A DNA stretch of 35,585 nucleotides from Opitutus sp. GAS368 (GTDB lineage Bacteria; Verrucomicrobiota; Verrucomicrobiia; Opitutales; Opitutaceae). The notes beneath the pieces are model-generated. The model made no database searches. It had not been told where the DNA came from and saw only the letters and a list, made by a program, of their open reading frames with translations. Both the position numbers and the translations under genes were made by a program. The stretch covers positions 1-35,585 of the forward strand of contig CAMBRG010000024.1 in NCBI GenBank assembly GCA_945869845.1, read 5' to 3'. This document shows positions 5,293 to 35,585 of this stretch, one piece after another (within the stretch, counting starts at the first letter, position 1; each line of letters begins with the position of its first letter).

Positions 5293-5339
5293 AAAGGATT
5301 TTATATTTAAATTAGCGACTGTATTGTAACGAGGTCAAA

Positions 5340-18013: not shown

Positions 18014-21000
18014 TCAGAAGCGGCCGTTGATGCCGGCCGTCACCGTGACGAAATTGATGATCGTGCGGCGCGTCCGGTCCTTGAAACCGACGTACCAACG
18101 CTGGGGCTCGTTGAGGATGTTGGAGGCGTTGAGCGTGAAGCCGAGATTGGGCCGATACTGGTATCCCGCACTGACGTTCAACGTCTTCATCGAGTAGCGG
18201 TATTGGTTCAGTGCCGGCGACAACACGCTGATCGCGGTCGGGTGCTCGCCCGTGAAATTGTAGAGCAGACTGGTGTTAAACTTCCGGTAGCGCCAACTCA
18301 GCGAGGCATTCATCGCCGCCGGGATGAAGTTAGCAATGTCGCGACGGGAAAAATAGACCGCCGGCGTGCTCGCCGTTGGCTCACGGCCCAAGATTGGCGT
18401 CCCGCCCGGAGTGGCTGCGCTGCCCACGCCATGCTGGTTGATCCGGGTATAGTTGAACGAGGCGGAAAGCCCCTTGAGCGCGCCGGGCAAAAAGGTGAAC
18501 TGCTGATTGTAGGCAAACTCCCAGCCCTGCACGTAGACGGTGCCCGCATTCATCGACGTGCGCTCAATGTAACCTACATATTGGCCGTCGTAGCCGTTGT
18601 CCGGTCCGTCCGCAATAAAGCCGCGGTCCAATCCGGCGACGATGTAGTCGCTGATGGTTTTGTGAAACCAGCCAAAGGTGAGGCTGCCGACCGGCTCGAA
18701 ATAGTATTCGAGCGTGGTATCCCAATTCGAGGCCTGCTGGGGCTTGAGGCCCGCGTTGTTCACCGTGAGGACTTGGGTGGTGTCGTTGGGCGTTTCCCCC
18801 GGCAACAGGCTGCCCAGCGGCGCGCGGCCATAACCCGTCGACCAACTGGCCCGGGCCTTTAAGTTGGGGGTGATGTCATGGAAAACATGGGCGCTCGGAA
18901 ATTTTTGCGTGAACGCGCCCGGGAGGGTGCGGTAATTCACGCCGTAGTCGGCAGCGGCAGCGCCGACCGGATCCGCGCGCTGCTGCGCGGCCGTGCTAAG
19001 AATCCGGGAGCGGACCCAGCCCCAACTTTCCGTGCGCACCTGCTCGAAACGCACTCCGGTCAGGTAACCGGTGCGGCCCAAGAGACCGCCTCGGCCGAGC
19101 CGGCCCTGCGCCATGATGTAGGTCGCCGGGATCCACTCGGTGACGCCATTCGTGCCGATAAATTTTTGGCTTTCGTTGAAGTAGAAATCTTCGTTCCACA
19201 GCGCGGGGTCGGCTGGCCGGCCGTCCTTGGTGATGCCCTCGGCCTGCCAGATCGGAATTTTGCGCCCGGTCTTCACGCGGTCGTAGCTCAAGTAGCTATC
19301 GTCGGGGGCGAAGCGGAACGCGGGATCATAAGCGGCGGTGGCTTTGGGCACCCACCGTTGCCGTTCCTTGCCCCACTGGTCCATCTGGAGGGAGCGCCAG
19401 TGAAAGCCTGCCTTCAACGTGGTCGGGGCGGCGACGGGCAACTTGTAGCGAACGTCAAAACGGAACTGTTTTAGCAGCTGGTCCTGTTCGTTACGCTGCC
19501 GAACCAGGCCGTCGGTCGCGCGCGGGAGGTAGTTGCGGGCGTCGGTAAAATCGGGTCCGCCGTTCTGGATAAACTTGGGGTGGAGTTCGTTCTCGCTCTG
19601 GTCGATTATCCAACCGGCGCCGCCAAAGAACACGGCCCGGCCCGGCACCTGGGCGGCCGGGTCGAAGAGCCGCATGTTGAGCTGGCCACCCCGGCCCGTG
19701 CCGTTGTTGAGCGTCGTGCGCGAGATGCCGGCCGTGTATTCGATGTTGAGGTTCGAGTAGGTGTGCTCGCCGGTGAAATCGACGCGGCCCATGCGCACGT
19801 AATAGTTCAGCGGGCCGTCCATCTGCACATCGATATTGTTCGTGTTCGTGCCCGCGGCCGAAGTGCTCGGGATCGCGCGCAACACCGTAACCCGGTTGGT
19901 GAACGCTCCGGGCACGATCCCCGTGGTGGCGCTCGGCACCTGCGTATTGCTGTTGCCGGAGGCTGCGGCCGACAAGCGCACGCGGCGGCGGAGCCGCTCG
20001 AAATTGTCGTTCTCGGTCACCGCAAGGGAGAACTTCGTCGTCGGCGACCATTTGTAATCGGTCCGCAACGCGATGCTCTTCTGCTTACGATTGTTGGCGT
20101 TGTCCCAGGTCTGGTAGTTGAACACCGGCGCCGGACCGGTGCCAATGTTAGTGCGGTCAAAAACCGACTCGAAGCCGCCGACCGCGTTTTCCGAATAAAA
20201 GAGATTCACCGAGGTGCCGAGGTTGCGCGAACCGCCGAACACGCTGAACACCTGCTGGTGGGTCACGTTGAGAATCGGGTGCGAGCGGTGCTGTGAGCGC
20301 AGCGGCGTTTGCTCGAAAAACGGCGGTGCCATCCGCACGCTGAAATTGTAGGTGGTCCGGCTGTCTTCCTTCATACTGAAGGTCGAGCGGGTCTTGAAAT
20401 TGATCGTACCGCCGAGCGAGTCGGCGCCTTTGTCGGGCGTCTGGCCCTTAATCAGCTCCATGCCCTCGAACATCGCGCCGGTGATCGACTGGAGCTCGAA
20501 GCTCCGGTTGGTCCCCAGCGTCGTCAGCGACCCGCCGTCCACTGTGACGTTGTTGAGCGTGGGATCCATGCCGCGGATGTTGAAGCGGTAGGCGAGCCCT
20601 TCGTCGGTCGGGCTGCCTGCCACGCCCGGCAGGCGCATCACGACTTCGCCTGCGCTCATGTTGGGCAGGTAGCCGAACGCATCCATCGCGATCACATCCT
20701 TCACATTATCCGCGTTCTTCTTTTCCGTGATCATCGCCGCGTTGCCCTCGCGTTCGCCCGTGACCTTAAATGAGGCGAGTTTGTAGATGGCCGCCGTCAG
20801 TTCGAAATCGCGCACCGCCCGCTCGCCCGCGCCGACCGTGACCGTGCGCCGGATAGGATCGAGACCGATGTAGGTCACCTCGAGCTCGTAGGTGCCCGGA
20901 GGGACATTCGAAATCACGAAGCGGCCGGAGTTGTCGGTGAGCAGACTTACGCTCAACCCCGGCGCCGTCACGGCGGCCCCTTGGAGGGTGTTGCGGGTCG

Positions 21001-21160
21001 CGGCATTGCTGACGGCACCGGTGATGGTGCCTGTCGCCTCCGCGCCAACCGCACTCAGCGGATCTGACAGGAGCAGGCCGAGGAGTGCCGACAACGCGAT
21101 GCCGGACCACGTGCGACCGCGCGAAACGAATCGACTGAGAGTGAGCCATTCTTGCTTCAT
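18014..21160 (-). CDS. TonB-dependent outer-membrane receptor
   Basis: The start at ATG 21160 (MKQEWLTLSRFVSRGR) gives 1048 residues with a long signal peptide ending SAVGAE. Residues about 45-125 are a carboxypeptidase-regulatory-like domain (GTITGAVSNAATR, NSGRFVISNVPPGTYEL). The plug contains NMSAGEVVMRLPGV, NIRGMDPTLNNVTVDGG and ADSLGGTINFKTRSTF. The beta-barrel ends in the aromatic NGRF. It is read away from the sulfatase cluster across a shared 358-bp promoter region, so it is probably the import receptor of that locus or co-regulated with it. Confidence 0.93.
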   Translation of the reverse strand: MKQEWLTLSRFVSRGRTWSGIALSALLGLLLSDPLSAVGAEATGTITGAVSNAATRNTLQGAAVTAPGLSVSLLTDNSGRFVISNVPPGTYELEVTYIGLDPIRRTVTVGAGERAVRDFELTAAIYKLASFKVTGEREGNAAMITEKKNADNVKDVIAMDAFGYLPNMSAGEVVMRLPGVAGSPTDEGLAYRFNIRGMDPTLNNVTVDGGSLTTLGTNRSFELQSITGAMFEGMELIKGQTPDKGADSLGGTINFKTRSTFSMKEDSRTTYNFSVRMAPPFFEQTPLRSQHRSHPILNVTHQQVFSVFGGSRNLGTSVNLFYSENAVGGFESVFDRTNIGTGPAPVFNYQTWDNANNRKQKSIALRTDYKWSPTTKFSLAVTENDNFERLRRRVRLSAAASGNSNTQVPSATTGIVPGAFTNRVTVLRAIPSTSAAGTNTNNIDVQMDGPLNYYVRMGRVDFTGEHTYSNLNIEYTAGISRTTLNNGTGRGGQLNMRLFDPAAQVPGRAVFFGGAGWIIDQSENELHPKFIQNGGPDFTDARNYLPRATDGLVRQRNEQDQLLKQFRFDVRYKLPVAAPTTLKAGFHWRSLQMDQWGKERQRWVPKATAAYDPAFRFAPDDSYLSYDRVKTGRKIPIWQAEGITKDGRPADPALWNEDFYFNESQKFIGTNGVTEWIPATYIMAQGRLGRGGLLGRTGYLTGVRFEQVRTESWGWVRSRILSTAAQQRADPVGAAAADYGVNYRTLPGAFTQKFPSAHVFHDITPNLKARASWSTGYGRAPLGSLLPGETPNDTTQVLTVNNAGLKPQQASNWDTTLEYYFEPVGSLTFGWFHKTISDYIVAGLDRGFIADGPDNGYDGQYVGYIERTSMNAGTVYVQGWEFAYNQQFTFLPGALKGLSASFNYTRINQHGVGSAATPGGTPILGREPTASTPAVYFSRRDIANFIPAAMNASLSWRYRKFNTSLLYNFTGEHPTAISVLSPALNQYRYSMKTLNVSAGYQYRPNLGFTLNASNILNEPQRWYVGFKDRTRRTIINFVTVTAGINGRF

Positions 21161-21345
21161 GGATGTGCGGGGTAACAAGTGCGGCCGCGCGCGCATTCCC
21201 CAAGGGTCGGGGGTAGAACGGCATGGCCTTAGCTTAGGTTGGATGAAAACGGGGAGGGAGGAGGGCGGGGAGCCCTGACCACCGCACGTTCGAAAGCGAC
21301 CGCGCGCGAGGCAAACCCGAAATCAGCCAACCGCAGAAGCTCCCG

Positions 21346-21362
21346 CACAAACTCCGTTTGTG
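21346..21362. promoter_or_regulatory. Palindrome in divergent TBDR/sulfatase intergenic region
   Basis: CACAAAC-TCC-GTTTGTG is a perfect 7-bp dyad with a three-base centre. It lies between the starts of the leftward TBDR (21160) and the rightward sulfatase (21519). Its position fits a regulator site for one or both genes; the cognate regulator is not in the window. Confidence 0.4.
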
Positions 21363-21387
21363 TGCCGGCCCGGGCTGCCGCGGACCA

Positions 21388-21419
21388 CGATGTCGTCGCC
21401 CAAACCTGCAACGACATCG
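21388..21419. promoter_or_regulatory. Spaced inverted repeat in divergent intergenic region
   Basis: CGATGTCGT (21388-21396) and ACGACATCG (21411-21419) are perfect 9-bp inverted arms around 14 bases. The arm starts are 23 bp apart, about two helical turns. Together with the dyad just upstream this suggests a compact control region, by inference. The remainder of the 358-bp gap shows no gene. Confidence 0.4.
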
Positions 21420-21518
21420 GCGGCGGACCGCCCGCCCGCCGGGCCTCACGACCGCGCGCTTTCGGCCGCAACCTCCACACCCGCCCGCCGTCTTCTCCCC
21501 GCTCGCTCACCCTTCCCC

Positions 21519-22865
21519 ATGAAATCATCCCTCCTTATCCGTCTCTTCTGCCTCCTCGCGCTCTTCGCTCCGGTTTTCACCCGCGCCGCGACTTCACCCA
21601 ACGTCATCATCTTCTACGCCGACGATCTCGGCTGGGGTGAAATCGCCGCGCAGGGCTTCACCAAAGATATTCCGACTCCCCACATCGACTCCCTCGCCCA
21701 AAACGGCCTGCGTTTCACCAACGGCTACGTCGCCGCGACCTATTGCAGCCCCTCGCGCGCCGGCCTCGTGACCGGTCGCTACCCCACCCGCTTCGGCCAC
21801 GAATTCAACACCGTCGCCAACGCCGTCGGCCTCCGCGCCGACCAGACCACGATGGCCTCGCGCCTGCGGTCCCTAGGCTACGCCACCGCCGCCGTCGGCA
21901 AGTGGCACCTCGGCAATCAGCCGGAAAACCGCCCGACGAAGCGCGGCTTCGACGAATTCTACGGCACGCTCAATAACACCCCGTTCTTCCACCCGACCAA
22001 CTTCATCGACTCGCGCCTCTCCGACGAGGTCCGCGAAATCACCGACCCCAAATTCTACACCACCGACGCCTACGCCGCCCGCGCCGTCGATTGGTTGGAG
22101 AAAAACAAAGCCAAGCCCTGCTTCCTCTACCTGCCCTTCAACGCCGTCCACGCCCCGCTCGAGGCGACCCAAAAAAATCTCGACCGTTTCCCCAACATCA
22201 CCGACCCGAAACGAAAAACCTTCGCCGCCATGATAGCCGCGATGGACGACGCGGTCGGCGCCGTGATGGCGAAGATCCGCGCCCTCGGCCAAGAGGAAAA
22301 CACGCTCGTCTTCTTCATCTCCGACAACGGCGGTCCCACCGCGAGCACCAGTTCGGCCAACGGCCCGCTCCGCGGCTTTAAGATGACCACGTTCGAGGGC
22401 GGCACGCGCGTCCCCTTCATCGCCCAGTGGAAAGGTAAAATCCCCGCCGGCAAAACCTACAACTTTCCCGTGCTGAATCTCGACGTCCTGCCCACCGCGA
22501 TCATCGCCGCCGGCGGCAAGCCCGAGGCGTCGTGGCAACTCGACGGCGTCGACCTGATGCCCTACCTCACCGGCCAGCAGACCACCCGTCCGCACCCCAC
22601 CCTCTTCTGGCGCTACGGCCCGCAATGGGCGATCCGCGACGGCGATCTGAAACTCGTCGTCGCCCGCGGCGGCAGCGGCCAACCCGAACTTTACGACCTC
22701 GCCGCCGACATCGGCGAATCGAAGGACCTCGCCGCCGCCCAACCCGCGAAAGTGAAGGAACTGCAAGCGAAGTGGGACAAGTGGAGCGCCGCGCAAGCCC
22801 CCGCCAGCGCCCCCGACTCCGTTGCCGGCCCCGCGAAGAAGAACAAAAAGAAAAAAGCCAACTGA
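21519..22865 (+). CDS. Exported type I sulfatase
   Basis: The start at ATG 21519 gives 448 residues with a signal peptide (MKSSLLIRLFCLLALF, ending FTRAA). It belongs to the formylglycine-dependent sulfatase family. Metal-binding D35-D36 are in IIFYADDLGWG. The modification motif C-x-P-S-R is CSPSR at 76-80, where C76 becomes formylglycine. GKWHLG (K128, H130) and the metal-binding SDNGG (D269, N270) follow. It ends in a Lys-rich tail (KKNKKKKAN). It hydrolyses a sulfate ester in the periplasm or outside the cell; the substrate is not predictable. It needs a separate formylglycine-generating enzyme, not found here. An upstream start at 21360 would bury the signal peptide. Confidence 0.93.
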   Translation: MKSSLLIRLFCLLALFAPVFTRAATSPNVIIFYADDLGWGEIAAQGFTKDIPTPHIDSLAQNGLRFTNGYVAATYCSPSRAGLVTGRYPTRFGHEFNTVANAVGLRADQTTMASRLRSLGYATAAVGKWHLGNQPENRPTKRGFDEFYGTLNNTPFFHPTNFIDSRLSDEVREITDPKFYTTDAYAARAVDWLEKNKAKPCFLYLPFNAVHAPLEATQKNLDRFPNITDPKRKTFAAMIAAMDDAVGAVMAKIRALGQEENTLVFFISDNGGPTASTSSANGPLRGFKMTTFEGGTRVPFIAQWKGKIPAGKTYNFPVLNLDVLPTAIIAAGGKPEASWQLDGVDLMPYLTGQQTTRPHPTLFWRYGPQWAIRDGDLKLVVARGGSGQPELYDLAADIGESKDLAAAQPAKVKELQAKWDKWSAAQAPASAPDSVAGPAKKNKKKKAN

Positions 22866-22908
22866 GCGTTTTTTTTGGGGGGCCAAACCTCCCTGATTCC
22901 GCCCCGGC

Positions 22909-23174
22909 GGACCGCCCTCCGCGCTTACCTCAACGGGCCGTTCAAGCCGTCCGCGATCGACGGCCTCGGGCAGAAAAACTACGCCCGTATCCTCCGCGCC
23001 CGCGAGCGCGGGCCGATCGAACACCGTTGGCTTCGCGGCGTCTCCGTGCGCATTGCCGGCAACAAACTCCTCGACGTGGACCCTCCCATTACCGAGGAGA
23101 CCAACGGCTACACCGCCGGCACCGCCAAATTCCGCGGTCGCCAGTTCGTCCTCGATCTCACCCAACGCTTCTGA
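22909..23174 (+). pseudogene. Relic: ECF sigma factor start fused in frame to TBDR C-terminus
   Basis: The frame translates as ALRAYLNGPFKPSAIDG ... YARILRARERGPIEH up to about 23024. This matches ALRAYLHGLVKPSDIDD ... YARLLRARERGPVEH of the intact sigma factor at 31733, with clear DNA similarity. It then switches to RWLRGVSVRIAGNKLLDVD ... RGRQFVLDLTQRF, the pattern of the last strands of a TBDR barrel with terminal Phe. The junction is near 23025. The piece has no signal peptide, lacks sigma region 4 and lacks the plug and most of the barrel, so it cannot work as either protein. It is best read as the scar of a deletion that removed the rest of a sigma-fecR-TBDR module between the two sulfatases. 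Confidence 0.75.
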
Positions 23175-23194
23175 ACGCTGGTCGCTTCTTCGCC

Positions 23195-24844
23195 ATGCTT
23201 TCACCGATTCGCCGGTTCGCCGTCCTCCTCCTGCTCGCCGTCACCGCCTTCGCCGCCGAACGCCGGCCCAATGTGATTGTCGTCCTAGTCGACGACATGG
23301 GCTGGGCCAACCTCGGCTGCTACGGCGGGCCCGTGGAAACTCCCGTCCTCGACCGCTTGGCGGCCGACGGCGTGCGCTTCACCCAGTTCTACAACTACGC
23401 CCGCTGCTGCCCCAGTCGGGCCGCGCTCCTCACCGGCCTCCATCCGCATGAGACCGGCCTCGGTCACATGACCTTCAAGCGCACCGGCACGAGTCCATCG
23501 AAACTCTCCGAACGCCTGAAAATGCCCGCCGCCTACCGCGGCTGGGTGCGTCCGACGGTGCCCACGTTGCCCGAGATGCTCCGCACGGCCGGCTACGGCA
23601 CCTACATGACCGGCAAGTGGCACGTCGGTAACAGCGACCCGGCCACCTGGCCCCTCCAACGCGGCTTCGACCGTTTCTACGGTTTCCTCGAAGGCACCTC
23701 GGATTTTTTTCGCCCGGACGATCTTCATCGCGGCAACGAAAAGATTTCGCCGGACGGTGAGGGCTATTACACCACCGATGCGTTCACCACCGAGGCCATT
23801 GCCAATCTCCGCGATCACGCGACCCGTAAACCCGACGCCCCGTTCTTTCTCTATCTGTCCTACAACGCCCCCCACTTCCCCATGCAGGCCAGGCCGGAAG
23901 ACTTCGCCAAATACCGTGGCCGCTTCAAAGAGGGCTGGGATGTCCTCCGCATGCGCACGTTGGAGCGCCAGCAGAAACTCGGGTTGATCCCGGCCTCCAC
24001 CGCCCTCAGCCCGCGCCCCGGAGCCACCGACCGGCTCGGCACCGAGGGCGGCGAAGTCCCGGCTTGGGCGAGCCTCACGCCCGAGGAGCAGGACCGCATG
24101 GATGCGATCATGGCCACCTACGCCGCGATGATCGACCGCGTCGACCAAAACCTCGGTCGCCTCGTCTCCCACCTCCGCGAAAGCGGCCAGCTCGAAAACA
24201 CCGCGATTTTTTTCCTCTCGGACAACGGCGCCGAAGCCGAAAGCCCGCCCTTGGGGCAATTCCAACTCGCCAATCTCGGCCACTACGGCCGCGCTTGGGC
24301 GACCGCCTCCAACACGCCCTTCCGCGAGTATAAACATTTCACCCACGAGGGCGGGATCTTGACGCCGCTCATCGTGCACTGGCCCCAGGGCATTTCCCCC
24401 GCACAGCGCGGCACCCTGAGTCACCAAAACGGCTTCCTCCCCGATCTCGTGGCCACCTGCCTCGACCTCGGCGCCGCGACCCGCCCGGCCACGATGGAGG
24501 GCCGGCCTGCGCCCGTGGTCGACGGCCGCACCCTGCGCCCGGTCCTCGCCGGCGCCACCGCCCCGCTGCACGACGCACCCATTTGCCTCGAACACGAGGG
24601 CAACCGCATGGTTCGCGACGGCCGCTGGAAACTCGTCGGCTTCTTCCGCGAACCTTGGGAACTCTACGACCTTGAAACCGACCGCGCCGAAGCCCGCAAC
24701 GTGGCCGCCGCGCACCCCGACATTGTCCGGCGTCTTGAAGCGGCCTACGCGACGTGGGCGACCCGCGTCGGTGCGCTCCCGTGGGACGAGGCCCAACACC
24801 ACTCGGTCTACGACGCCGATACGAAATACGGCATCCGGCGTTAA
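23195..24844 (+). CDS. Exported type I sulfatase
   Basis: The start at ATG 23195 gives 549 residues with a signal peptide (MLSPIRRFAVLLLLAVTAF, ending FAAE). The frame is open far upstream, but only as an Arg/Pro-rich shadow of the first sulfatase and the relic. Metal residues D33-D34 are in VVLVDDMGW. The modification motif CCPSR at 71-75 has C71 as the formylglycine precursor. GKWHVG (K141, H143) and SDNGAE (D343, N344) follow. It is about 100 residues longer than its neighbour, with an insertion in the middle (RTLERQQKLGLIP region), so it probably has a different substrate. It is of the arylsulfatase A-like type. It lies upstream of a TBDR on the same strand, 136 bp away. Confidence 0.93.
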   Translation: MLSPIRRFAVLLLLAVTAFAAERRPNVIVVLVDDMGWANLGCYGGPVETPVLDRLAADGVRFTQFYNYARCCPSRAALLTGLHPHETGLGHMTFKRTGTSPSKLSERLKMPAAYRGWVRPTVPTLPEMLRTAGYGTYMTGKWHVGNSDPATWPLQRGFDRFYGFLEGTSDFFRPDDLHRGNEKISPDGEGYYTTDAFTTEAIANLRDHATRKPDAPFFLYLSYNAPHFPMQARPEDFAKYRGRFKEGWDVLRMRTLERQQKLGLIPASTALSPRPGATDRLGTEGGEVPAWASLTPEEQDRMDAIMATYAAMIDRVDQNLGRLVSHLRESGQLENTAIFFLSDNGAEAESPPLGQFQLANLGHYGRAWATASNTPFREYKHFTHEGGILTPLIVHWPQGISPAQRGTLSHQNGFLPDLVATCLDLGAATRPATMEGRPAPVVDGRTLRPVLAGATAPLHDAPICLEHEGNRMVRDGRWKLVGFFREPWELYDLETDRAEARNVAAAHPDIVRRLEAAYATWATRVGALPWDEAQHHSVYDADTKYGIRR

Positions 24845-24980
24845 GAGAAACCGACCCGCGTCGCGTTAGAATTCTTTCGAACGGGCCGCGTAGGACTCGG
24901 GGCTTGCACGGTGTTCGCACGCCGGATTTTCTCCCGACTCGCGCTCGGTCTGCATTCCCTGTGCCCGGCGCGGCCAACCC

Positions 24981-27900
24981 ATGTCCACCCCACCCGTCGC
25001 CCTCGCTGTCCTTGCTGCCCTCGCGCTCGCCGTTTCCCTACCCGCGCAGACTGACCCTGCCAGCGGCACTCCCGTTTCGGCCGCCGCTCGCAGCGGCAGC
25101 GTCGCCGTCGGCACCGTCACCGGCCGCGTCTTCAACCCCGCCACCGGCGAGTATGTTCGCAACGCCCAGCTTCGCCTCGTCGAGACCGGGGCCACCACCG
25201 TCTCCGAAGCCGAGGGCGCGTTTCGCTTCGGCTCGGTCCCGGCCGGGCGGCTCACTCTCGTCGTCACTTACACCGGCTACCGCTCCGTCACCGCCGCCGT
25301 CGATGTCGCCCCCGGCGCCACGGCGACCAAGAACATCGAGCTCGTCAGCACGCTGCAAGAAGCCAGCACCACCGCGGCCGACGGCACCGTTAAGCTCGCC
25401 GCCTTTGCCGTCTCCTCCGAGCGCGAGGGCAGCGCCAAAGCCATCATGGACCAGCGCAATTCCATGAACATCACCAACACCGTCGCCTCCGACGCGTTTG
25501 GCGACAACGCCGAGGGCAACGTCGGCGAATTCCTCAAGCACCTCCCTGGCGTCGAGCTCGACCTTTTCTACGGCGAGGTCCGCACCGTCCGCCTCGGCGG
25601 CCTCGGCTCCGAATACACCTCCGTCACCATGGACGGCATCGCCCTCGCCAGCACCGATGCCAATAACTCCGGCTCCGGCGCCGCCCGTTCCTTCACCATG
25701 GAGATGGCTTCGCTCAACAGCATGGAGTCCATCGAGGTCAACAAAACCGTCAGCGCCGATGTCGATGCCAACGCCCCCGCCGGCACCATCAACCTCCGCA
25801 CCAAACGCGCCTTCGACCGCGTCGGCCGCCGCGTCTCTTGGCAGGCCAACGTCGAGGCCCACTCCGAGGCCATGAAGTTCGGCCGCTCCCTCGGGCCCGA
25901 CGAAGACCGGGCGAACTACAAAATCCGCCCCGGCGGCATCTTCGAATACTCGGATCGTTTCTTGGACAACCGCCTCGGCGTCGTGGTGAACGTCAGCGAG
26001 TCCAACGTCTACCAAGAAGCCCTCATCACCGGCTCCGCCTACAGCACCGCCGTTTCCGCCACCGATACGCGCCCGCTCGTTCCTACCACCCTCAACTTCC
26101 AGTGGGCGCCCCGTTTCAACAAGCGCTTCGCCACCACGCTCACCACCGACTACCGCATCACCCCCTACCTCGATGTCGGCTTGGTCACGATCTACAACTA
26201 CGCCGATCTCTGGACGCCCCAGCGCACGGTCATTTTCAACTCCAGCAGCGGCGCGCGCAGTCAGGTTGTCGGCGACGATCCGCTCCTCAGCTTCACCTCC
26301 GCCGCCTCCGGCACCGTGCAGGTCAATCCCGTCGCCGTCTCCAAAATGGGCGAGACGTTCACCTTGATCCCCCGCGCCCTCTTCAAACGCGGCAACTTCG
26401 AGCTCGAGGCCAAGGGCGCCTACTCCGATTCCTCCAGCTGGTATGATCCCATGGGCCGCCACCAGTCCATCCGCGACACCAACTCGCCCACCGCCACCGG
26501 CATCACGTATCGCGCCGAACGCTCGTCCCTGATGTCGAGCGATTGGAAACTTACCCAGATCGGCGGACCCGACATCGCCCTCGGCTCCAGTTACACCAAC
26601 CCCACGTTGACCGCCAACGACGGGCGCTTCGGCCGCACGGTCCTCTTCAGCGGCGAACTCATCGGCACCCTCAAGACCAACCAATGGCTCCCCGTCACGT
26701 GGAAGACCGGCCTCAAGACCCGCCAGCAAATCCAGAAGTTCGAGGACGACCAACTCGCCAAGCGCTACGACTACGCCCCCGGCGGCGTGATCCCGGCCCG
26801 CGGCGCTTGGGATGCCTACCGCTCGCCTTGGGACTACTCCCTCGCGATGAACGACGGCAGCGCCACCTCCCTCTCCGGCGCCACCGTCTTCATGCCCAAC
26901 CTCCGCGCCATCGGCGATCTCTACAACCATAGCCGCGCCGACTTCCGCCAAAACTGGGGCACCAACGCCGACAACTACTACCAATCCTACGTCGCCCGCC
27001 GCCGCCGTTACTACGAGCGCATCGACGCCGGCTTTTTGATGGGCACGACCAAGTTCCTGCGCTTCACCGCCCGCGCCGGCCTCCGCTGGGAAGAAACCAC
27101 CACCGAAGCCAGCGAAGCCGATACCCGCCCGCCCGCCGAGGTCCGCGCCGCCGGCTTCCCCGTCAGCGCCGCCGGCGTCGCCACCACCATCCCCGGCATC
27201 GACTACCAGTTCCTCTCGCAGCCCCGCGTCAAACGCACCGGCCAATACGACAACCTCTTCCCCAGCGCCTCGCTGAAATACAACGTGGCACCCAACCTCG
27301 ACGTGCACTTTGGCTTCAGCTCGACCATCCGCCGCCCCTCCTACGTCAACCTCGCCGGCGTCTGGACCATCAACGACCAGGCCCTCACCGTCACCACCCC
27401 CAATCCGCGCCTGAAGCCGGAAACGTCGGAGAACTACGCCGCCCGCATCGCCTACTACTTCGAGCCCGTTGGCCAGCTCGCCGCCACGTTCACCGAGCGC
27501 AGCGTCGAAAACCTCTTCATCACCGACCGCCTCAGCGCGGCTGAATTCGGCTACACCGGCGACGATGAGCTGCAGGGCTACGAATTCATCACGACCGAGA
27601 ACGGCCCCGGGCGCATCAAGATCCGCAGCATGGAGCTCGAGTATAACCAGAGCCTTTCCTTTCTCGGCCCGCTCTTTCGCCGACTCTCCGTGCGCGGCAG
27701 CTACACCCGCCTCTACGCCGAGATCGCCCGCGCCAATCTCACGCCCCACCTCGCCAGCGGCGGCCTCAACTACACGCTCAATAAGTTGAACCTCTACACC
27801 AACTGGAACTGGTCCGACGACGTGAACACCAACCTCGCCGGCACCACCTACCGCCGCCACCGCACCAACCTCGACGCCGGCGGCGGCTGGCGCTTGAACC

Positions 27901-28078: not shown

Positions 28079-28111
28079 CTCACCCCACGTCACGCTCCCT
28101 CCCCTCCCCCC

Positions 28112-29779
28112 ATGTCCACCCCACCCGTCGCCCTCGCCGTCCTCGTTGCCCTCGCCCTCGCCGTTTCCCTTCGCGCCGCCGAGACCTACGATCTCGTCAT
28201 CTACGGCGGCACCTCCGGCGCGGTCGCCGCCGCCGTCCAAGCCAAGAAAATGGGCAAGACCGCCGTCATCGTCTCGCCCGACAAACACCTCGGCGGCCTC
28301 TCCGCCGGCGGCCTCGGCTTCACCGACACCGGCGACAAATCCGTCATCGGGGGCGTCGCCCGCGATTTCTACCACCGTATCTGGCAGCACTACGACCAAC
28401 CCGCTGCGTGGCGCCAGCAGCAGAAATCCGAATACGGCAACAAGGGCCAGGGCACGCCCGCCATCGACGGCGTAAACCGCACCATGTGGATCTTCGAGCC
28501 CCACGCCGCCGAGAAAGTCTTCGAAGACCTCGTCCGCGAACATCAAATCCCCGTCCTTCGTGACGAATGGCTCGACCGCGCCAAAGGCGTGAAAAAAACC
28601 GGCGCCCGCATCACCGCGATCACCACCCTCAGCGGCAAAACCTACGCCGGGAAAATGTTTCTCGACGCCACCTACGAGGGCGACCTCATGGCCGCCGCCG
28701 GCATCGACTACCACGTCGGCCGCGAATCCCGCGCCCAATACAGCGAAGAACTCAACGGCGTGCAGACCGGCGTCCTCCACCACCGCCACCACTTCGGCGT
28801 CCTCAAGGAAAAGGTCAGCCCCTACGTCGTCCCCGGCGATCCCAAGAGCGGCATTCTCCCCCGCATCAACCCCGACCACCCCGGCGAGTTCGGCGCCGCC
28901 GACAAAAAACTCCAGGCCTACTGCTTCCGCATGTGCCTCACCGACGACCCGTCGAATCGCGTGCCCTTCGCCAAACCCGCCGGCTACGACGCTTCCCAAT
29001 ACGAACTCCTGCTGCGCATCTACGCCGCCGGTTGGACCGAGACGTTCGGCAAGTTCGACCCCATTCCCAACCGCAAAACCGACACCAACAACCACGGCCC
29101 TTTCAGCACCGACAACATCGGGATGAACTACGATTACCCCGACGCCTCCTACGCCCGTCGCCGCGAGATTATCCGCGAGCACGAGACCTACCAGCAGGGC
29201 TGGCTCTACTTCATCGCCAACGACCCGCGCGTCCCCGCCGACGTCCGCGAAAAAATGTCCCGCTGGGGCCTCGCCAAAGATGAGTTCAAGGACAACGGCA
29301 ACTGGCCGCACCAGATCTACGTCCGCGAAGCCCGCCGCATGATCGGCTCCTACGTGATGACGGAAAACGAACTGCTCAAACGCCGCCCCACCCCCGAGTC
29401 CATCGGCATGGGCAGCTACGCGATGGATTCGCACAACGTCCAACGCTACATCACCCCCGAAGGCTACGTGCAGAACGAGGGCGACATCGGCGTCTCGACG
29501 AAAGGCCCCTACGCCATCGCCTATGGCTCGCTCACGCCGAAAAAAGCCCAGTGCGAAAACCTCCTCGTGCCCGTCTGTGTTTCGAGCACGCACATCGCCT
29601 ACGGTTCGATCCGCATGGAGCCCGTCTTCATGATCCTCGGTCAAAGCGCCGCGACCGCCGCCGTGATGGCGATCGATTCCAAAATCGCCGTGCAAGACGT
29701 CCCCTACGCCGCCCTCCGCACCCGCCTCCTCGCCGACGGCCAAGTCTTGGAAACTCCGCCCAAACCCACAAAAAAGTAG
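28112..29779 (+). CDS. Exported FAD-dependent oxidoreductase (FAD_oxidored family)
   Basis: This 555-residue protein from ATG 28112 has a Sec-type signal peptide (MSTPPVALAVLVALALAVSL, then RAAE) and no twin-arginine motif. An N-terminal FAD-binding Rossmann fold follows (VIYGGTSGAVAAAVQAKKMG, G32, G33, G36), with HLGGLSAGGLGFTDTG and FLDATYEGDLMAAAG. The C-terminus SIRMEPVFMILGQSAATAA returns to the FAD domain. The family is annotated FAD_oxidored (PF12831-like) and its reaction is generally unknown; oxidation of a sugar-type hydroxyl is only a suggestion. It forms a tandem pair with the next gene. The TAG stop lies within a REP-like repeat. Confidence 0.88.
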   Translation: MSTPPVALAVLVALALAVSLRAAETYDLVIYGGTSGAVAAAVQAKKMGKTAVIVSPDKHLGGLSAGGLGFTDTGDKSVIGGVARDFYHRIWQHYDQPAAWRQQQKSEYGNKGQGTPAIDGVNRTMWIFEPHAAEKVFEDLVREHQIPVLRDEWLDRAKGVKKTGARITAITTLSGKTYAGKMFLDATYEGDLMAAAGIDYHVGRESRAQYSEELNGVQTGVLHHRHHFGVLKEKVSPYVVPGDPKSGILPRINPDHPGEFGAADKKLQAYCFRMCLTDDPSNRVPFAKPAGYDASQYELLLRIYAAGWTETFGKFDPIPNRKTDTNNHGPFSTDNIGMNYDYPDASYARRREIIREHETYQQGWLYFIANDPRVPADVREKMSRWGLAKDEFKDNGNWPHQIYVREARRMIGSYVMTENELLKRRPTPESIGMGSYAMDSHNVQRYITPEGYVQNEGDIGVSTKGPYAIAYGSLTPKKAQCENLLVPVCVSSTHIAYGSIRMEPVFMILGQSAATAAVMAIDSKIAVQDVPYAALRTRLLADGQVLETPPKPTKK

Positions 29780-29870: not shown

Positions 29871-31541
29871 ATGCCCACGCCCCTTCGCTCCCACGCCACG
29901 CTCATCCTCGGCGCCCTCCTAGCCCTCGCCACCGCGCCCCTCCTCCCCGCCGCCACCGCGCCCGCGCTCCCCGCCCCCACCACGCCCAACCCCGGCCTGC
30001 GTTACTATTATCCGTTGCCCGCCGATCCCGCCGCCAAACCGCAGACGCTGCGCGTGGACATCTGCGTTTACGGCGGCACGCCCGGCGGCGTCGGCGCCGC
30101 CGTGCAGGCACGCCGCCTGGGCAAGACCTCCGCCCTCGCTGTCTTCCGTCGTCACGTCGGCGGGCTCACCGCCGCCGGCCTCACCGCCGTCGATCTCGGC
30201 AAAAAAGAATCCATCGGCGGCATGGCTGCCGAATTCCTCGACCGCATGGGCCAATGGAGCGGCTTCCGCGCCGCCGATGCCGAGCGCACCATGCGCGCCA
30301 TGCTCGCCGAGGCCGGCGTGCCTGTGTGGTTCGAACACCGCCTCGCCCGCGTCGAAAAAGACGGCAACCGCATCCGCGCCCTCGTCTTTGAAAACGGCGA
30401 CCGCATCGAGGCCGCCGTGTTCATCGACGCCACCTACGAGGGCGACCTGCTCGCCCGCGCCGGCGTCTCGTTTCACGTCGGCCGCGAGGGCAACGCCGCC
30501 TACGGCGAGGCCTTCAACGGCACCTTCATCGCCGACAAGCACCAGTTCCGTTTCCCCGTCGACCCCTACCGCACGCCCGGTGATCCCAAGAGCGGCCTCC
30601 TCCCCGGCATCTCCGCCGAGCCGCCCCGCACCGAGGGCTCGGGCGACAAACTGGTCCAAGCCTACAATTTTCGCATGTGGCTCACGACCGCCGCCGCCGG
30701 CCGCCCGTTTCCCCAACCCGCCGGCTACGACCGCGGCGACTACGCGCTGCTCGACCGCTTCCTCAATTCTGCGCCCACCGATTTTGAGTGGGATTGGACC
30801 TACCGCAAAGGCCCGCTGAAACTCAACCTCGGCGACTGCAACAACGCCGGCCCCGTCTCCACCGATTTCATCGGCGGCAGCAACCGTTGGCCCGAAGGCG
30901 ACTACGCCGAGCGCGAAAAGATTTTCCAAGCCCACGTCACCTACCAGCAAGGTTACATGTGGTTCCTCGCCCACGACCCCGCCGTGCCGGAAAAACTCCG
31001 CGCCCACGTGCAGACCTTCGGCCTCCCCCGCGACCAGTTCGAGGAAACCGACGGCTGGCCCCACGAGCTCTACGTGCGCGAAGGCCGCCGCATGGTTTCC
31101 GACTACGTCATGACCGAGCACAACTGTAAGGGCAAAATCGTCGCCGCGGACAGCGTTGGCCTCGCGAGCTACACGATGGATTCGCACCACACCTCTCGCG
31201 TCGTCGTCAACGGGGTCGTGATGGCCGAGGGCAACGTCGAGAAATCCACGCCCCAGCCCTACCCCGTGAGCTACCGCGCGCTCGTCCCCCGTGAACGCGA
31301 ATGCGCCAACCTGCTCGTGCCCGTGGCCGTCTCCTCGTCGCACATCGCCTTCGGGAGCATTCGCATGGAGCCCGTCTTCATGCTTCTAGGCCAAAGCGCC
31401 GCCACCGCCGCCGCGCTCGCGATCGACGCCAAGACCTCCGTGCAAGCCGTGGACTACGCCGCCCTCCGCACCCGCCTCCTCGCCGCCGGCCAGAAACTCG
31501 CCTGGACCCCACCCGCCAAACCCGCCGCCGCCAAAAAGTAG
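29871..31541 (+). CDS. Exported FAD-dependent oxidoreductase (FAD_oxidored family), paralogue
   Basis: This 556-residue protein has a signal peptide (MPTPLRSHATLILGALLALA) followed by an Ala/Pro-rich linker. The FAD-binding motif VYGGTPGGVGAAVQARRLG is at 67-85, then HVGGLTAAGLTAVDLGKKE and FIDATYEGDLLARAG. The C-terminus SIRMEPVFMLLGQSAATAA is almost the same as in the preceding gene. The two are clear paralogues from an old tandem duplication, collinear over their whole length but well diverged. Unlike its partner it carries an extra ~35 residues between the signal and the Rossmann fold. Its role is presumably a related oxidation in the periplasm; the substrate is unknown. Confidence 0.88.
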   Translation: MPTPLRSHATLILGALLALATAPLLPAATAPALPAPTTPNPGLRYYYPLPADPAAKPQTLRVDICVYGGTPGGVGAAVQARRLGKTSALAVFRRHVGGLTAAGLTAVDLGKKESIGGMAAEFLDRMGQWSGFRAADAERTMRAMLAEAGVPVWFEHRLARVEKDGNRIRALVFENGDRIEAAVFIDATYEGDLLARAGVSFHVGREGNAAYGEAFNGTFIADKHQFRFPVDPYRTPGDPKSGLLPGISAEPPRTEGSGDKLVQAYNFRMWLTTAAAGRPFPQPAGYDRGDYALLDRFLNSAPTDFEWDWTYRKGPLKLNLGDCNNAGPVSTDFIGGSNRWPEGDYAEREKIFQAHVTYQQGYMWFLAHDPAVPEKLRAHVQTFGLPRDQFEETDGWPHELYVREGRRMVSDYVMTEHNCKGKIVAADSVGLASYTMDSHHTSRVVVNGVVMAEGNVEKSTPQPYPVSYRALVPRERECANLLVPVAVSSSHIAFGSIRMEPVFMLLGQSAATAAALAIDAKTSVQAVDYAALRTRLLAAGQKLAWTPPAKPAAAKK

Positions 31542-31620
31542 GGCGCGGTCTCCGACCCGCCCTTCCGTGTAGGGGCGTCGCTCGCCGACGCCCGTTCCGT
31601 AGGCCGCATGCTTGCAGGCG
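31538..31620. repeat. Cluster of three GTAG-footed hairpins
   Basis: Three different palindromes, each preceded by GTAG, stand in a row. The first (31538-31563) is GGTC-TCC-GACC inside outer arms AGGGC/GCCCT, and its TAG is the stop codon of the FAD gene. The second (31569-31593) is GGGCGTCG-CTCGC-CGACGCCC. The third (31599-31620) is CGCATGC-TT-GCAGGCG, with six of seven pairs. A GTAG tetranucleotide beside a hairpin is the known hallmark of REP sequences mobilised by RAYT transposases. None is encoded here. The 191-bp gap holds no gene. Confidence 0.7.
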
Positions 31621-31732
31621 CTTTTTGGCTGTAGCCAAGGTCGCCGCCCCCTCAGGTCGAATCACCCATCCGCCACCCCAAGACACCGACCGCGGCCTTG
31701 ATTTTCCCCGCGACCTCTTCATTTCTCCCGCC

Positions 31733-32257
31733 GTGGATTCACCCCGATCCGATACGACCCAGTGGTTTACCGCCGAGCTCGCCCCACACGAGCCCGCCCT
31801 CCGCGCCTACCTGCACGGCCTCGTCAAACCCTCCGACATCGACGACATCGTGCAAGAAACCTACGCCCGCCTCCTCCGCGCCCGCGAGCGCGGGCCCGTC
31901 GAGCATCCCCGCGGCCTCCTCTTTGCCACCGCCCGTAACGCCGCCCGCGATCTCTTCCGCCGCCGCGCCACCGCCAACACGATTCCGATAACGGAAATGG
32001 TCGAATCGCGCGTCTTCGACTCCGCGCCCAACGCCGCCGAAACCGCCAGCCGCCAGCAGGAGACCGACCTCTTGGCGACGGCGATCGCGGAACTGCCGCC
32101 CCGCTGCCGCGAAATCCTCGTCCTCCGCAAATTTGAAAATCTTTCCCACCGCGAAATCGCCGAGAAACTCGGCATCTCCGTGCACACCGTCGAGGTGCAA
32201 CTCACCAAAGCGCTCCACCGCTGCGAAGAATTTTTTGCGCGCCACGGCCTGCCCTGA
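31733..32257 (+). CDS. ECF-type RNA polymerase sigma factor
   Basis: The chosen start is GTG 31733 (174 residues, MDSPRSDTTQWFTAEL), the first plausible start before region 2. The open frame continues far upstream as a shadow of the FAD gene. Region 2 includes DIDDIVQETYARLLRARERG (about 36-55) and the following FATARNAARDLFRRR. Region 4 includes LPPRCREILVLRKFENLSHR with the helix-turn-helix IAEKLGISVHTVEVQLTKAL (about 120-160). It is FecI-like: it precedes fecR by 3 bp and then a TBDR with an STN domain, the standard cell-surface signalling arrangement. It should activate the downstream receptor and perhaps the sulfatase locus. Confidence 0.93.
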   Translation: MDSPRSDTTQWFTAELAPHEPALRAYLHGLVKPSDIDDIVQETYARLLRARERGPVEHPRGLLFATARNAARDLFRRRATANTIPITEMVESRVFDSAPNAAETASRQQETDLLATAIAELPPRCREILVLRKFENLSHREIAEKLGISVHTVEVQLTKALHRCEEFFARHGLP

Positions 32258-32260
32258 ACG

Positions 32261-33352
32261 ATGAGCGCGCCCTCGTCCCAAATCTCGCCCGAAGAAGCGA
32301 TCCGTCGCGCCGCCGCGCGCTGGACGATTCGTCGTGATCGCGGCCTCTCCTCGGCCGAATCAATCAACTACGAGCTCTGGCTTGCCGCCGATCCGCGCCA
32401 CGCCGCCGCGATGCAGCGCTCCACCGGCGCTTGGTCCCGCCTTGATCACCTCAATGAAAGCGCCGCCACGCCCATCCTCGCCGCCGCCACTCGCCGCCGA
32501 TCCTTCTGGCGCCGCACCGTCACGCTTGGCTCCCTTGCGGCCGCCGCCGCGCTCGCCGTCGGGTTATTCACCTGGAGTCGTCCCGCTCCCGTCGCACCCC
32601 CGCTTCCTCTTGCTTTCACGGCGACTAACTCGGCCCGCACCGTCACCCTTTCCGACGGCTCTGTCGTCCAACTCAACACCGGCGGCGAAGTCGTCGAACA
32701 ATTCACCGCCACCGCCCGCCACGTCAGTCTCACCCGAGGAGAGGCTCACTTTGCCGTCACCAAGAATCCCGCCCGCCCCTTCATTGTCCGCGCCGGCAAC
32801 GTGGACGTCCGCGCCGTCGGCACCGCGTTCAACGTCCACCTCCAGTCCGCCGCCGTCGACGTGCTTGTCACTGAAGGCAGAGTCTCTGTTTCCGAGGTGG
32901 AGCGCGTTGTCCCCAACGCGCTTTTGGCCGCCTCCGCGGCAAATCCAACGCGTGGGGAGCAACGCGTTCCACCCACGAACACCGTGCTGAGCGTCAACGA
33001 ACGCGCGGTCGTCTCTCTCAAAGTCGCGTCCTCCGCCGCAGCGAAAAGCGCCTCCGTCGTCGTCACCACGGCCACTCCCGAAGAAATCTCCCGCACCCTC
33101 GCGTGGCAGGCCCCCCTCCTGCGCCTCGGCGGCGCGACGCTCGCCGAACTCATCCTCGAGTTCCAACGCCGCTCCGGCCAGCGCGTCATTTTGGCTGATC
33201 CTGCGCTCGCCTCACTGCGAGTGGGCGGTCGTTTCCGCGCCGACGACCTCGACGGCTTCACCCACCTGCTCGCAACCACGATGGATCTGGACGTAGAACG
33301 CACCGATGACGGCACGCTCGTGCTGCGGAAAAAAAAGTTGGAAGCTCGATAG
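32261..33352 (+). CDS. FecR-family transmembrane sigma regulator
   Basis: This 363-residue protein starts three bases after the sigma stop, so the two are probably cotranslated. Residues 1-60 form the cytoplasmic sigma-binding domain (DUF4880-like, NYELWLAADPRHAAAMQR). A single membrane helix is at about 86-105 (LGSLAAAAALAVGLFTW). The periplasmic FecR domain is at about 125-205 (RTVTLSDGSVVQLNTGGEV, HFAVTKNPARPFIVRAG, VRAVGTAFNV). The C-terminal DUF4974/STN-like domain is at about 290-360 (LAELILEFQRRSGQRVILAD). It senses the state of the TBDR and controls the sigma factor. A 78-nt palindrome is built into the linker at codons about 212-238. Confidence 0.93.
   Translation: MSAPSSQISPEEAIRRAAARWTIRRDRGLSSAESINYELWLAADPRHAAAMQRSTGAWSRLDHLNESAATPILAAATRRRSFWRRTVTLGSLAAAAALAVGLFTWSRPAPVAPPLPLAFTATNSARTVTLSDGSVVQLNTGGEVVEQFTATARHVSLTRGEAHFAVTKNPARPFIVRAGNVDVRAVGTAFNVHLQSAAVDVLVTEGRVSVSEVERVVPNALLAASAANPTRGEQRVPPTNTVLSVNERAVVSLKVASSAAAKSASVVVTTATPEEISRTLAWQAPLLRLGGATLAELILEFQRRSGQRVILADPALASLRVGGRFRADDLDGFTHLLATTMDLDVERTDDGTLVLRKKKLEAR
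32896..32973. repeat. 78-nt palindrome inside the fecR coding sequence
   Basis: The outer arms begin GGTGGAGCGCGTTG at 32896 and end CAACGCGTTCCACC at 32973, and pair with few mismatches. Next come CCCCAACGCG facing CGCGTGGGG, then TTTGGCCGC facing GCGGCAAA around the centre CTCC. Both ends carry GTGG on their own strand, resembling REP feet. The element keeps the frame and encodes the linker between the FecR domain and the C-terminal domain. Confidence 0.75.
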
Positions 33353-33419
33353 CGGGAATCGCCGATCACCGCGTCTTCCTCCCGCCGTCGGCCTCCGGGC
33401 CGATGGAAAAACCTCATCC

Positions 33420-35585
33420 ATGTTGCCCCTCAAACGTCAGGTCGGCTGGCTTCACCGCCTCCGCCTGACGCTCCCGCTGATCCTCTTTTTCGCGCTGCTT
33501 CCGCCCAACCTCCGGGCGGTGGAGGCGGCCCGGGGTTCGTTCGCCATTCCGGCGGCGGACGCTGAGGTGACGCTCGAGACGTTTTCCGATCAGGCCGGCG
33601 CCCAACTCGTCTATCTGATCGATGACGTGCGCGGTGTGACGACCAATCCCGTGCAAGGCACGTTCGCACTCCGCGACGCGCTCGAACGGCTGGTCGAGAA
33701 CACCGTGCTGCGGGCCACGCGGGATGAGAAAACCGGAGCTTTTCTGATCAAACGCACCACCCCGGTGCCGACGGTCACAGAAGTTCCGACCAACCCCGCA
33801 ACCAGTGCAGCCCTCCCGATGAAAAAATCCATCCCCGCACGCCTTGCCGCCGCGTTCGTCGCCTTCGCCACCGCCGATCTCCCGGCCCAGACGGCCACGC
33901 GATCCGCTACCAGCACGACCCCGCCGGAGACCACCGTGGTAATGTCGCCTTTCCAAGTCTCGACTGATAAAGACGAAGGATTCGTTGCGACCTCATCATT
34001 GGCCGGCGGCAAAATGTCCACCGATCTGAGGGACACCCCGCTGGCCTATTCGGTCATCACCAAGGAATTCATTCAGGCGCTCAATCTGATCGATACCGAA
34101 AAAGCCATGGAGTGGGCCGTGAATTCCTCCGTCGTGCGCGACGATGGGGCCGACCGCATTTTCAACGGCGACGGCGGCTCCCGCACCCGCGTCCGCGGTG
34201 TGGTGACCAAATCCCTCCGCAATTTTTTCGAGCTGGGCAGGTATACCGATACCTACAGTCAGGAACGGATTGATTTCGCCCGTGGCACCAACGCCCTGCT
34301 CATCGGCAACGCCGGGTTGGGCGGCGCATCCATCGCATTGACCAAGCAAGCCCAATTCGGCAAGCGCTCGGGCGAAGTCGGCTTGAACCTGGACAGCTAC
34401 GGAGGGAAACGGGTGACCCTTGATGTCAACCAACCGCTCGGGGACAAATTGGCCGTTCGCGCCAGCCTCCTGTGGCAGAACTCCGATTCGTGGCGCGACC
34501 GCGTCTTTGATCGCCGCGAGGGGGCGTATCTTACGGCTTCCTACCGCCCTTGGAGGAAGACGCAGCTTCGCGTGGACTTTGAAAACTACCGGCAGGAGGA
34601 GCTGCTGGCTCTGTCGCATCTCAACGACCAAGTTTCTGGCTGGGACGGCGTGACCGTTTTCTCGGCGCCGACCCCAACCTTTGCGACCGCCAACGCCACC
34701 GGCGTGACGCGCTTGGGTAACGCCGCCAATGAATTTAACCTGATCGTTCCCGGTGCCACCGGCCTTAACACCGTGGTCAATTACCTCAACCAATGGAGAA
34801 CCTTGGGCGGGGCCGCGACCACTTCGACCCCGGTCAACGGCGTCATTCCCGTAAATTTTAATCAACTGGGCGCCGGCGGCTCCTACATGATCGATATTCC
34901 CAACGAACCCGCCAACCGCTACACCATCGCGACGAGCAAATCCAATTTCTTCGTCCCCACCCGCAAGACCGTCACGATGCCGACGAATCTGCCTTCGTTC
35001 ATTCAGCTCTTGCAGAACTTCTCCGCCTTCGCCGATCAGCAAGTCGGCGAACATCTCTTTCTTCAGGCGGCCTTCAGCCACACCTATTCGGGGCGCAGCA
35101 CCAACTCACTCGCGATCGATTTGGCCAACGTCTATATCGACATCAACCGCAACCTGCCCAACGGCCAAGCGAACCCGTTCTTCTTGGAACCCTACTCTGA
35201 AAACACCCGTATCAATATTCGGGATGGCTACGATTGGTTCAATGAGACCCGCGTGGCCGCCGCCTACGTCAGAGACAATACGCGTTGGGGTTCTTTCCGC
35301 CTCAACGTGCTTGCCGGTCACACCACGCGGGACACCGACGTCCGCATTTACGCCCCGAGCATGGCCCGGAATCCCGACATCCGCCAGCGCCCGACCTTTG
35401 ATGGCTTTGGTTACCGGTATTATCTCCGGGATTCGGAGCAGACGTATGCGCCCCCCGCCCAAGTATCCTATTACAACGCGCCCACGAACACGACGACCAG
35501 CTACCCGGTGGAGAACTACCTCGCGCTCTACGCCGCCGATTCCGACAACCGCACGGCCAAGCGCACTTTCGACTATTTGCAAACC
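33420..35585 (+). CDS. STN-domain TonB-dependent receptor (partial, 5' end)
   Basis: The frame is open from ATG 33420 to the right edge (722 codons). A signal peptide comes first (about 1-40, LTLPLILFFALLPPNLRAV). An STN domain is at about 42-115 (GSFAIPAADAEVTLETFSDQ, LERLVENTVLRATRDEKTG), which in this setting contacts FecR. At codon 134 the chain continues MKKSIPARLAAAFVAFATAD then LPAQ, a second signal-like segment. The plug follows (DTPLAYSVITKEFIQALN, GSRTRVRGVVTK, GNAGLGGASIALTKQ) and then barrel strands. It lies 67 bp after fecR and should be the substrate-sensing receptor of the sigma/FecR relay. The C-terminus is outside the window. Confidence 0.92.
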   Translation, partial: MLPLKRQVGWLHRLRLTLPLILFFALLPPNLRAVEAARGSFAIPAADAEVTLETFSDQAGAQLVYLIDDVRGVTTNPVQGTFALRDALERLVENTVLRATRDEKTGAFLIKRTTPVPTVTEVPTNPATSAALPMKKSIPARLAAAFVAFATADLPAQTATRSATSTTPPETTVVMSPFQVSTDKDEGFVATSSLAGGKMSTDLRDTPLAYSVITKEFIQALNLIDTEKAMEWAVNSSVVRDDGADRIFNGDGGSRTRVRGVVTKSLRNFFELGRYTDTYSQERIDFARGTNALLIGNAGLGGASIALTKQAQFGKRSGEVGLNLDSYGGKRVTLDVNQPLGDKLAVRASLLWQNSDSWRDRVFDRREGAYLTASYRPWRKTQLRVDFENYRQEELLALSHLNDQVSGWDGVTVFSAPTPTFATANATGVTRLGNAANEFNLIVPGATGLNTVVNYLNQWRTLGGAATTSTPVNGVIPVNFNQLGAGGSYMIDIPNEPANRYTIATSKSNFFVPTRKTVTMPTNLPSFIQLLQNFSAFADQQVGEHLFLQAAFSHTYSGRSTNSLAIDLANVYIDINRNLPNGQANPFFLEPYSENTRINIRDGYDWFNETRVAAAYVRDNTRWGSFRLNVLAGHTTRDTDVRIYAPSMARNPDIRQRPTFDGFGYRYYLRDSEQTYAPPAQVSYYNAPTNTTTSYPVENYLALYAADSDNRTAKRTFDYLQT

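Follow-up and report, generated by a model that had tools for sequence, protein, structure and literature searches.

Between two sulfatase genes of the window (the whole stretch of 35,585 nucleotides that was analysed) lies a short reading frame that begins like an ECF sigma gene and ends like a TBDR gene. This raises the question of whether a complete sigma-fecR-TBDR module, like the one at 31733-35585, once stood here and was cut down by an internal deletion, as the original prediction proposed, or whether the two pieces came together in some other way. The part of that deletion-scar reading which describes a decayed composite of sigma head and TBDR tail stands. The idea that a single module of the kind at 31733-35585 was cut down from within is not supported, and we modestly favour a join between the remnants of two loci.

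Architecture of the scar

The frame is open across 102 codons, between the stop of sulfatase A (22865) and the start of sulfatase B (23195), and the scar itself comprises 263 bases between the two genes (Table 1). The start at 22909 given earlier is one base out of frame, as in-frame codons start at 22908 or 22911. As originally predicted, the first part matches the intact ECF sigma gene of the window both as DNA (22912-23023 against 31794-31905, 80% over 112 nt, E 6.0e-23) and as protein (61% over query residues 2-52, E 7.5e-12). The second part is likewise the end of a TBDR: 23025-23163 matches the 3' end of a TBDR gene in genome G116 (74% nucleotide identity, E 1.5e-16), and three further genomes of other genera match the tail DNA, the weakest at E 2.2e-9, in a search that scored about four candidates in each of 150 family genomes and says nothing on absence. 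At the protein level the tail matches 50 places besides the scar, with 39-55% identity. Within the scar's own genome, a protein search with the head retrieves ECF sigmas and one with the tail retrieves TBDR C-termini. The homology of both head and tail is far beyond chance.

Table 1. Features of the scar, its flanking genes and the intact module, in window coordinates.
Feature	Position	Strand	Basis
Sulfatase A (PF00884), upstream flank	21519-22865	+	Pfam E 3.7e-58 on ORF 21360-22865
Scar reading frame	22875-23174	+	Mechanical ORF, TTG start, 99 aa
Spacer with T8-G6 run, no recognisable sigma N-terminus	22866-22911		Sequence; shuffle test not significant
Sigma remnant, ECF sigma residues ~21-57	22912-23021	+	Nucleotide match to 31794-31905; codon comparison
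Junction codon (His), shared by sigma ...EHPRG and some TBDR ...HRWLRG	23022-23024	+	Alignments
TBDR remnant, last ~49 codons and stop	23025-23174	+	Nucleotide and protein matches; neighbourhood survey
Sulfatase B (PF00884), downstream flank	23195-24844	+	Pfam E 5.3e-65 on ORF 22532-24844
Intact ECF sigma, paralogue of the head	31733-32257	+	Pfam Sigma70_r2 and r4_2 (ORF 31301-32257); TIGR02937 above cut-off
Intact FecR-type sigma regulator	32261-33352	+	Pfam FecR E 3.9e-19
STN-bearing TBDR, cut by contig end	33420-35585	+	STN E 0.0017 and Plug E 0.0031, below gathering scores

About 37 of the 174 sigma residues are retained in the head. The tail keeps about 49 of some 1100 TBDR residues, corresponding to the last barrel segment only, and STN and plug are absent. 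The sigma side reads ...RERGPIEH and the tail side (H)RWLRGVSVRI...RGRQFVLDLTQRF-stop; the two abut in frame at 23022-23024, with no FecR gene between them. Since some relatives of the tail have HRWLRG while the sigma has EHPRG, we infer that the join lies at the His codon. Short homology at the junction, a possibility raised in the original prediction, would come down to this codon, which holds the only bases common to both sides in alignments of relatives.

Upstream of about 22908, no significant sigma homology was found in four comparisons of the 46-nt spacer with sigma sequences, in which the gapped local scores were equalled by 130, 527, 1149, and 1327 of 2000 shuffles. Given this lack of homology, the sigma start codon and first 20 or so residues are missing as well, a loss that the original prediction does not mention. 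A two-base frameshift, with sigma homology continuing upstream of 22908, was considered and is unsupported by the shuffle test.

The 99-codon product has no match in Pfam at E up to 1 or in NCBIfam at E up to 1e-4. Rfam gave nothing in 22700-23300 (E up to 1), and a scan of 22750-23300, which covered one promoter type, found no sigma-70-type promoter or terminator-like site. With these searches empty, an RNA or promoter role for the scar was dropped. The G+C content of the scar (0.657) falls inside the 0.64-0.67 range of its neighbours and is still gene-like by codon position (0.67, 0.48, and 0.84).

The sigma head and the intact module

The head belongs to the same clade as the intact sigma of the window, to which the clade relatives compared are 66-92% identical. 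At synonymous sites the scar is as distant from the window's sigma (pS 0.41) as that sigma is from its counterparts in G067 and G091 (0.39-0.42). The head therefore looks like an old paralogue of the intact sigma rather than a fresh duplicate, and the same values rule out a recent duplication of the intact module. The ratio pN/pS between the scar and the window's sigma is 0.34, not near 1, as most of their shared history would have passed under selection.

The TBDR of the intact module probably continues in G000:C143:3-1166, which would supply its C-terminus and is 58% identical to the receptor of G123 (an own-genome search with the G123 receptor). This receptor end scores 16 against the tail of the scar, whereas 29 distinct tail-type ends, themselves picked for likeness to that tail, score 113-150. 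Nor was a tail-type end found in the modules of this sigma clade from 15 relatives, the TBDR frame being closed by a stop in 14 of them and running off the contig in G205. The receptors behind this clade are very diverse and of many kinds.

A separate feature of the receptors behind this sigma clade, the intact one here included, is a second signal-peptide-like segment (PMKKS...AQT) that follows the STN-type N-terminus in the same ORF (33420-33893 in the window, with an internal start at 33819). A script run on the window's module, those of the 15 relatives and that of G152 recovered this segment in 14 of 17 modules, beginning with ATG in 13 and GTG in one; it missed the segment in G248, G106, and G152, the last of which has it by eye. 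The conserved initiation codons suggest either an internal translation start or the addition of an STN prefix to a complete receptor precursor.

The receptor tail and its subfamily

Most of the 50 places matched by the tail (45) sit in open frames of at least 1014 aa; the remaining five are in shorter frames, several of them at contig edges (G126:C189, G183, G143, G156, and G192). Matches at E up to 1e-8 occur in 45 of 252 genomes, the scar's own included. The gene neighbourhoods of 44 places were surveyed, leaving out those in G126, G183, G043, G156, G184, and G192. A homologue of GlpD, GlpT, or GlpQ lies downstream on the same strand at 38 of the 44, and at 14 of them a sulfatase gene of the same orientation occurs no more than about 5.7 kb away. 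The Glp names derive from one or two members of each group that were matched to Pfam and NCBIfam models. The GlpD-like gene has a DAO/DAO_C match, with glycerol-3-phosphate dehydrogenase models below cut-off. For the GlpT-like gene, TIGR00712 is just below cut-off and the transporter subfamily TIGR00881 above it, while the GlpQ-like gene matches a glycerophosphodiester phosphodiesterase model above cut-off. The tail belongs to a glycerol-phosphate- and sulfatase-linked TBDR subfamily, whose neighbours hint at the uptake of glycerophosphodiester-containing, perhaps sulfated, compounds. Loci of this subfamily include L340-L379, L124, L125, and L037.

Upstream sequence of at least 4.7 kb is available for 36 tail-type TBDRs. 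Sigma and fecR genes stand in front of two of these (G116 and G140) and are not detectable in front of the other 34, at a search threshold of E 1e-6 that may miss divergent members. The G116 and G140 sigmas are just 38-43% identical to that of the window. Within the window's own genus, a tail-type TBDR gene in G126:C189 (L169, 6118-9374) is split over two or three frames and is either a pseudogene or the product of a sequencing error.

Decay of the fusion

Conservation of the fusion in several species, which would have counted against the original prediction, was not found. An 88-residue in-frame query matches 58 of 252 family genomes (E up to 1e-6) and, among the matches listed, the halves are joined in one of the 252, the window's own. 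The other listed matches are sigma heads, none of which extends past residue 56, or TBDR tails, none of which starts before residue 29; the join itself is at residue 39. Up to 21 first-look candidates were scored per genome in this search, with some large genomes giving up to 40. Neither the fusion nor the tail has a match at E up to 1e-5 in the 80 listed named loci that contain a relative of sulfatase B.

Both halves have lost conserved residues. The head differs at 3 of the 11 columns on which all 20 intact clade members compared agree; none of these members differs at more than one of 12. For the tail, columns were counted as conserved when at least 90% of a set of 29 distinct tails agree, and the scar has lost 5 of 19 such columns, against a maximum of 4 of 20 for an intact tail. 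Changes specific to the scar's head number eight nonsynonymous to three synonymous, or 10 to 5 when a looser outgroup is used, close to the 74% nonsynonymous expected without selection. The branches of the window's sigma and of G067/G091 together carry no nonsynonymous and seven synonymous changes (Fisher p 0.004 against the scar); the intact G126 sigma branch carries eight and two, and its inclusion removes the significance of the contrast (p 0.25). The contrast is thus no more than suggestive of relaxed selection, as the stretch is short and an intact branch behaves alike. On this comparative evidence, the scar is very probably a dead, decayed, and non-conserved remnant rather than a conserved gene.

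The flanking sulfatases in relatives

Orthologues of sulfatase A are present in G150 (97% amino acid identity over 386 residues), G091 (85%), and G062 (82%). The contig of G150, the nearest relative, ends inside the gene (G150:C92), and in G062 no sigma follows the orthologue within the stretch examined. In G091, the orthologue is followed after 2.2 kb by a sigma gene of the same strand whose product is 92% identical to the intact sigma of the window; a cytochrome c-like gene of opposite orientation separates the two. The G091 contig is 4.3 kb long and ends after the sigma, and this is the sole genome in which the pairing of sulfatase A and sigma was seen. Elsewhere in the scar's own genome, a paralogue of sulfatase A survives as a frameshifted 3' remnant (80% nucleotide identity over about 335 bases) next to a TBDR gene (3018-3355 of locus L118, from contig G000:C39).

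The nearest orthologues of sulfatase B are found in other genera: G106 (69%), G006 (65%), G007 (63%), and G082 (61%). Among 12 other genomes of the window's genus, a relative at E up to 1e-120 is present in G062 only (50%). In G007 and G082, which belong to one genus, a tail-type TBDR gene is followed by a GlpD-like gene and then by the sulfatase B orthologue. The neighbourhoods of G106, G006, and G078 contain no tail-type TBDR, so that the pairing occurs in two of five orthologue neighbourhoods inspected, both of the same genus. In the 80 named loci, scanned at E up to 1e-5, a sigma-fecR pair was found in L308 only and a partial sigma match in L313. The L308 pair, from a named Opitutales genome, lies directly upstream of a relative of sulfatase B (8356-11569; sigma 40%, fecR 33%, sulfatase 43%).

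In the window, sulfatase B is followed by TBDR, FAD, and FAD genes. G126 has a sigma-fecR-TBDR module of the clade directly upstream of the equivalent genes, and G152 has a fecR (65% identical to that of G126 and 61% to that of the window) in a comparable place. The receptor ORF directly after the G152 fecR (1134-4373 of locus L132, from contig G152:C614) joins an STN-type N-terminus to a TBDR body that is 91% identical over 908 aa to the window's TBDR at 24981, which has no STN. Pfam reports no STN for the G152 receptor at E up to 1, the label being based on similarity to other receptors. In this sister lineage, the receptor has perhaps become a transducer.

Two further features were seen in the window. 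The signal-peptide coding starts of the TBDR gene at 24981 and the FAD gene at 28112 are alike at 62 of 69 nt (24978-25046 against 28109-28177), with differing flanks. The counterparts of these genes in G088 and G126 have different N-termini, and the signal peptide seems to have been copied from one gene to the other. On the minus strand, 3166-7232 holds two adjacent genes rich in RCC1 repeats, one of them with an Ig-like domain.

It is plausible from these neighbourhoods that a sigma of the clade stood near the sulfatase locus, and likewise that a tail-type TBDR stood before sulfatase B. An intact module between orthologues of both sulfatases was found in none of the relatives' loci examined, and none of the genomes examined has a clade sigma and a tail-type TBDR in one module. 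A former signalling module of the sulfatase locus itself, as originally proposed, is a possibility for which these loci offer no intact counterpart.

Origin of the scar

We propose that the scar is probably a join of remnants of two loci. The head would be the leftover of a sigma gene once located beside sulfatase A, and the tail that of a glycerol-phosphate/sulfatase-type TBDR gene that once preceded sulfatase B. Everything between them, and the sigma N-terminus too, would have been lost by illegitimate deletion in one or more events, perhaps coinciding with the acquisition of sulfatase B. The in-frame join would then be chance, at one in three. The resulting scrap most likely yields no working protein and would now serve as a spacer between the sulfatase genes, whose regulation, if any, would come from elsewhere, for example from the intact module at 31733. 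Two sources are supported by the company of tail-type TBDRs (Glp genes in 38 of 44, a sulfatase in 14 of 44, sigma-fecR in 2 of 36), by the TBDR-GlpD-sulfatase B order in G007 and G082, by the sulfatase A-sigma pair of G091, and by the clade module of G126 and the related fecR of G152 upstream of the TBDR/FAD genes. The pairings come from one genus for sulfatase B and, for sulfatase A, from one 4.3 kb contig with an opposite-strand gene in between, which counts against the proposal.

Somewhat doubtful, though well worth weighing, is the original explanation, in which a single sigma-fecR-TBDR module between the sulfatases suffered one deletion from inside the sigma gene to the last TBDR strands. 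The order and strand of the pieces fit, and a clade module occupies a comparable place upstream of the TBDR/FAD genes in G126. The receptors behind the sigma clade differ so widely that a module with a tail-type receptor is possible, and G116 and G140 demonstrate that sigma and fecR can precede such a receptor; both points also speak against a two-locus join. The tail, however, is of a TBDR subfamily seen neither in the 15 clade modules nor in the intact module here (a score of 16 against 113-150), and the few tail-type modules have distant sigmas. The loss of the sigma start would in addition call for more than one event, or a larger one.

A less likely view is that sigma, fecR, and an STN-bearing N-terminus form a cassette that has repeatedly been joined to a downstream TBDR, and it is equally conjectural that the scar records a failed swap, in which the cassette's sigma became attached to the last part of a sulfatase-linked receptor from a foreign subfamily. 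The varied TBDR bodies behind one sigma clade and the foreign-subfamily tail would fit such a cassette, as would the STN prefix of G152 before a body that lacks STN in the window (24981).

An assembly or binning chimera, with unrelated pieces joined at the T8-G6 run or at the junction, is improbable. The genome is a draft of 219 contigs and 83% completeness, the nearest relative's contig stops inside sulfatase A, and sulfatase B has no near orthologue in the rest of the genus. Against this, the sequence is genus-typical on one side, where the TBDR at 18014-21196 and sulfatase A are 97-98% identical in G150, and the TBDR/FAD genes on the other side are present in several genomes of the same genus. 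The scar also has the G+C content of its neighbours, and its tail suits the adjoining sulfatase B, as in G007 and G082. That the fusion is expressed and yields a small protein, such as a region-2 fragment titrating a FecR-type regulator, is scarcely credible: its open frame and gene-like codon-position G+C would allow for it, but the fusion is not conserved and has lost conserved residues, the sigma N-terminus is absent, the TTG beside the T8-G6 run is the only start, no promoter-like site of the one type scanned occurs in 22750-23300, and inspection finds no signal sequence before the TBDR strands.

Significance and comparison with known systems

As a remnant, the scar is a case of ordinary gene decay, and it records how genes for sensing and uptake have come and gone beside sulfatase genes in the family. 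It also calls for caution, as an order of sigma followed by TBDR is by itself no proof of a former signalling module; here, the receptor type and the neighbourhood are what point to two sources. The comparison has in addition exposed a sulfatase-linked TBDR subfamily tied to genes of the glycerol-phosphate type, as well as a sigma clade whose receptors vary widely. A study on freshwater Verrucomicrobia describes TBDR carbohydrate-utilisation loci and many sulfatases (PMC5615132). In those parts of the literature that a search brought up, no scar of this kind was found, which is no proof of its absence from print.

Three kinds of known system bear comparison with the scar. Deletions in bacterial genomes leave gene remnants in the form of truncated or fused pseudogenes. 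Like these, the scar consists of partial, decayed, and species-specific gene pieces with a short junction, having neither the original start nor complete domains; it departs from the usual remnant in that its pieces seem to come from two neighbouring systems and are joined in frame. Cell-surface signalling of the FecI-FecR-FecA type employs an ECF sigma, a FecR regulator, and an STN-bearing TBDR. The head of the scar comes from an ECF sigma gene whose intact paralogue precedes fecR and a TBDR with a weak STN, but the scar has no fecR, STN, plug, or sigma region 4 and so cannot work as such a module. Finally, unlike the TBDR-GlpD/GlpT/GlpQ(-sulfatase) loci of the family, the scar keeps only the last 49 or so codons of the receptor gene and has no glycerol-phosphate gene before sulfatase B. 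Its tail is nevertheless of the same receptor subfamily and, as in G007 and G082, precedes sulfatase B.
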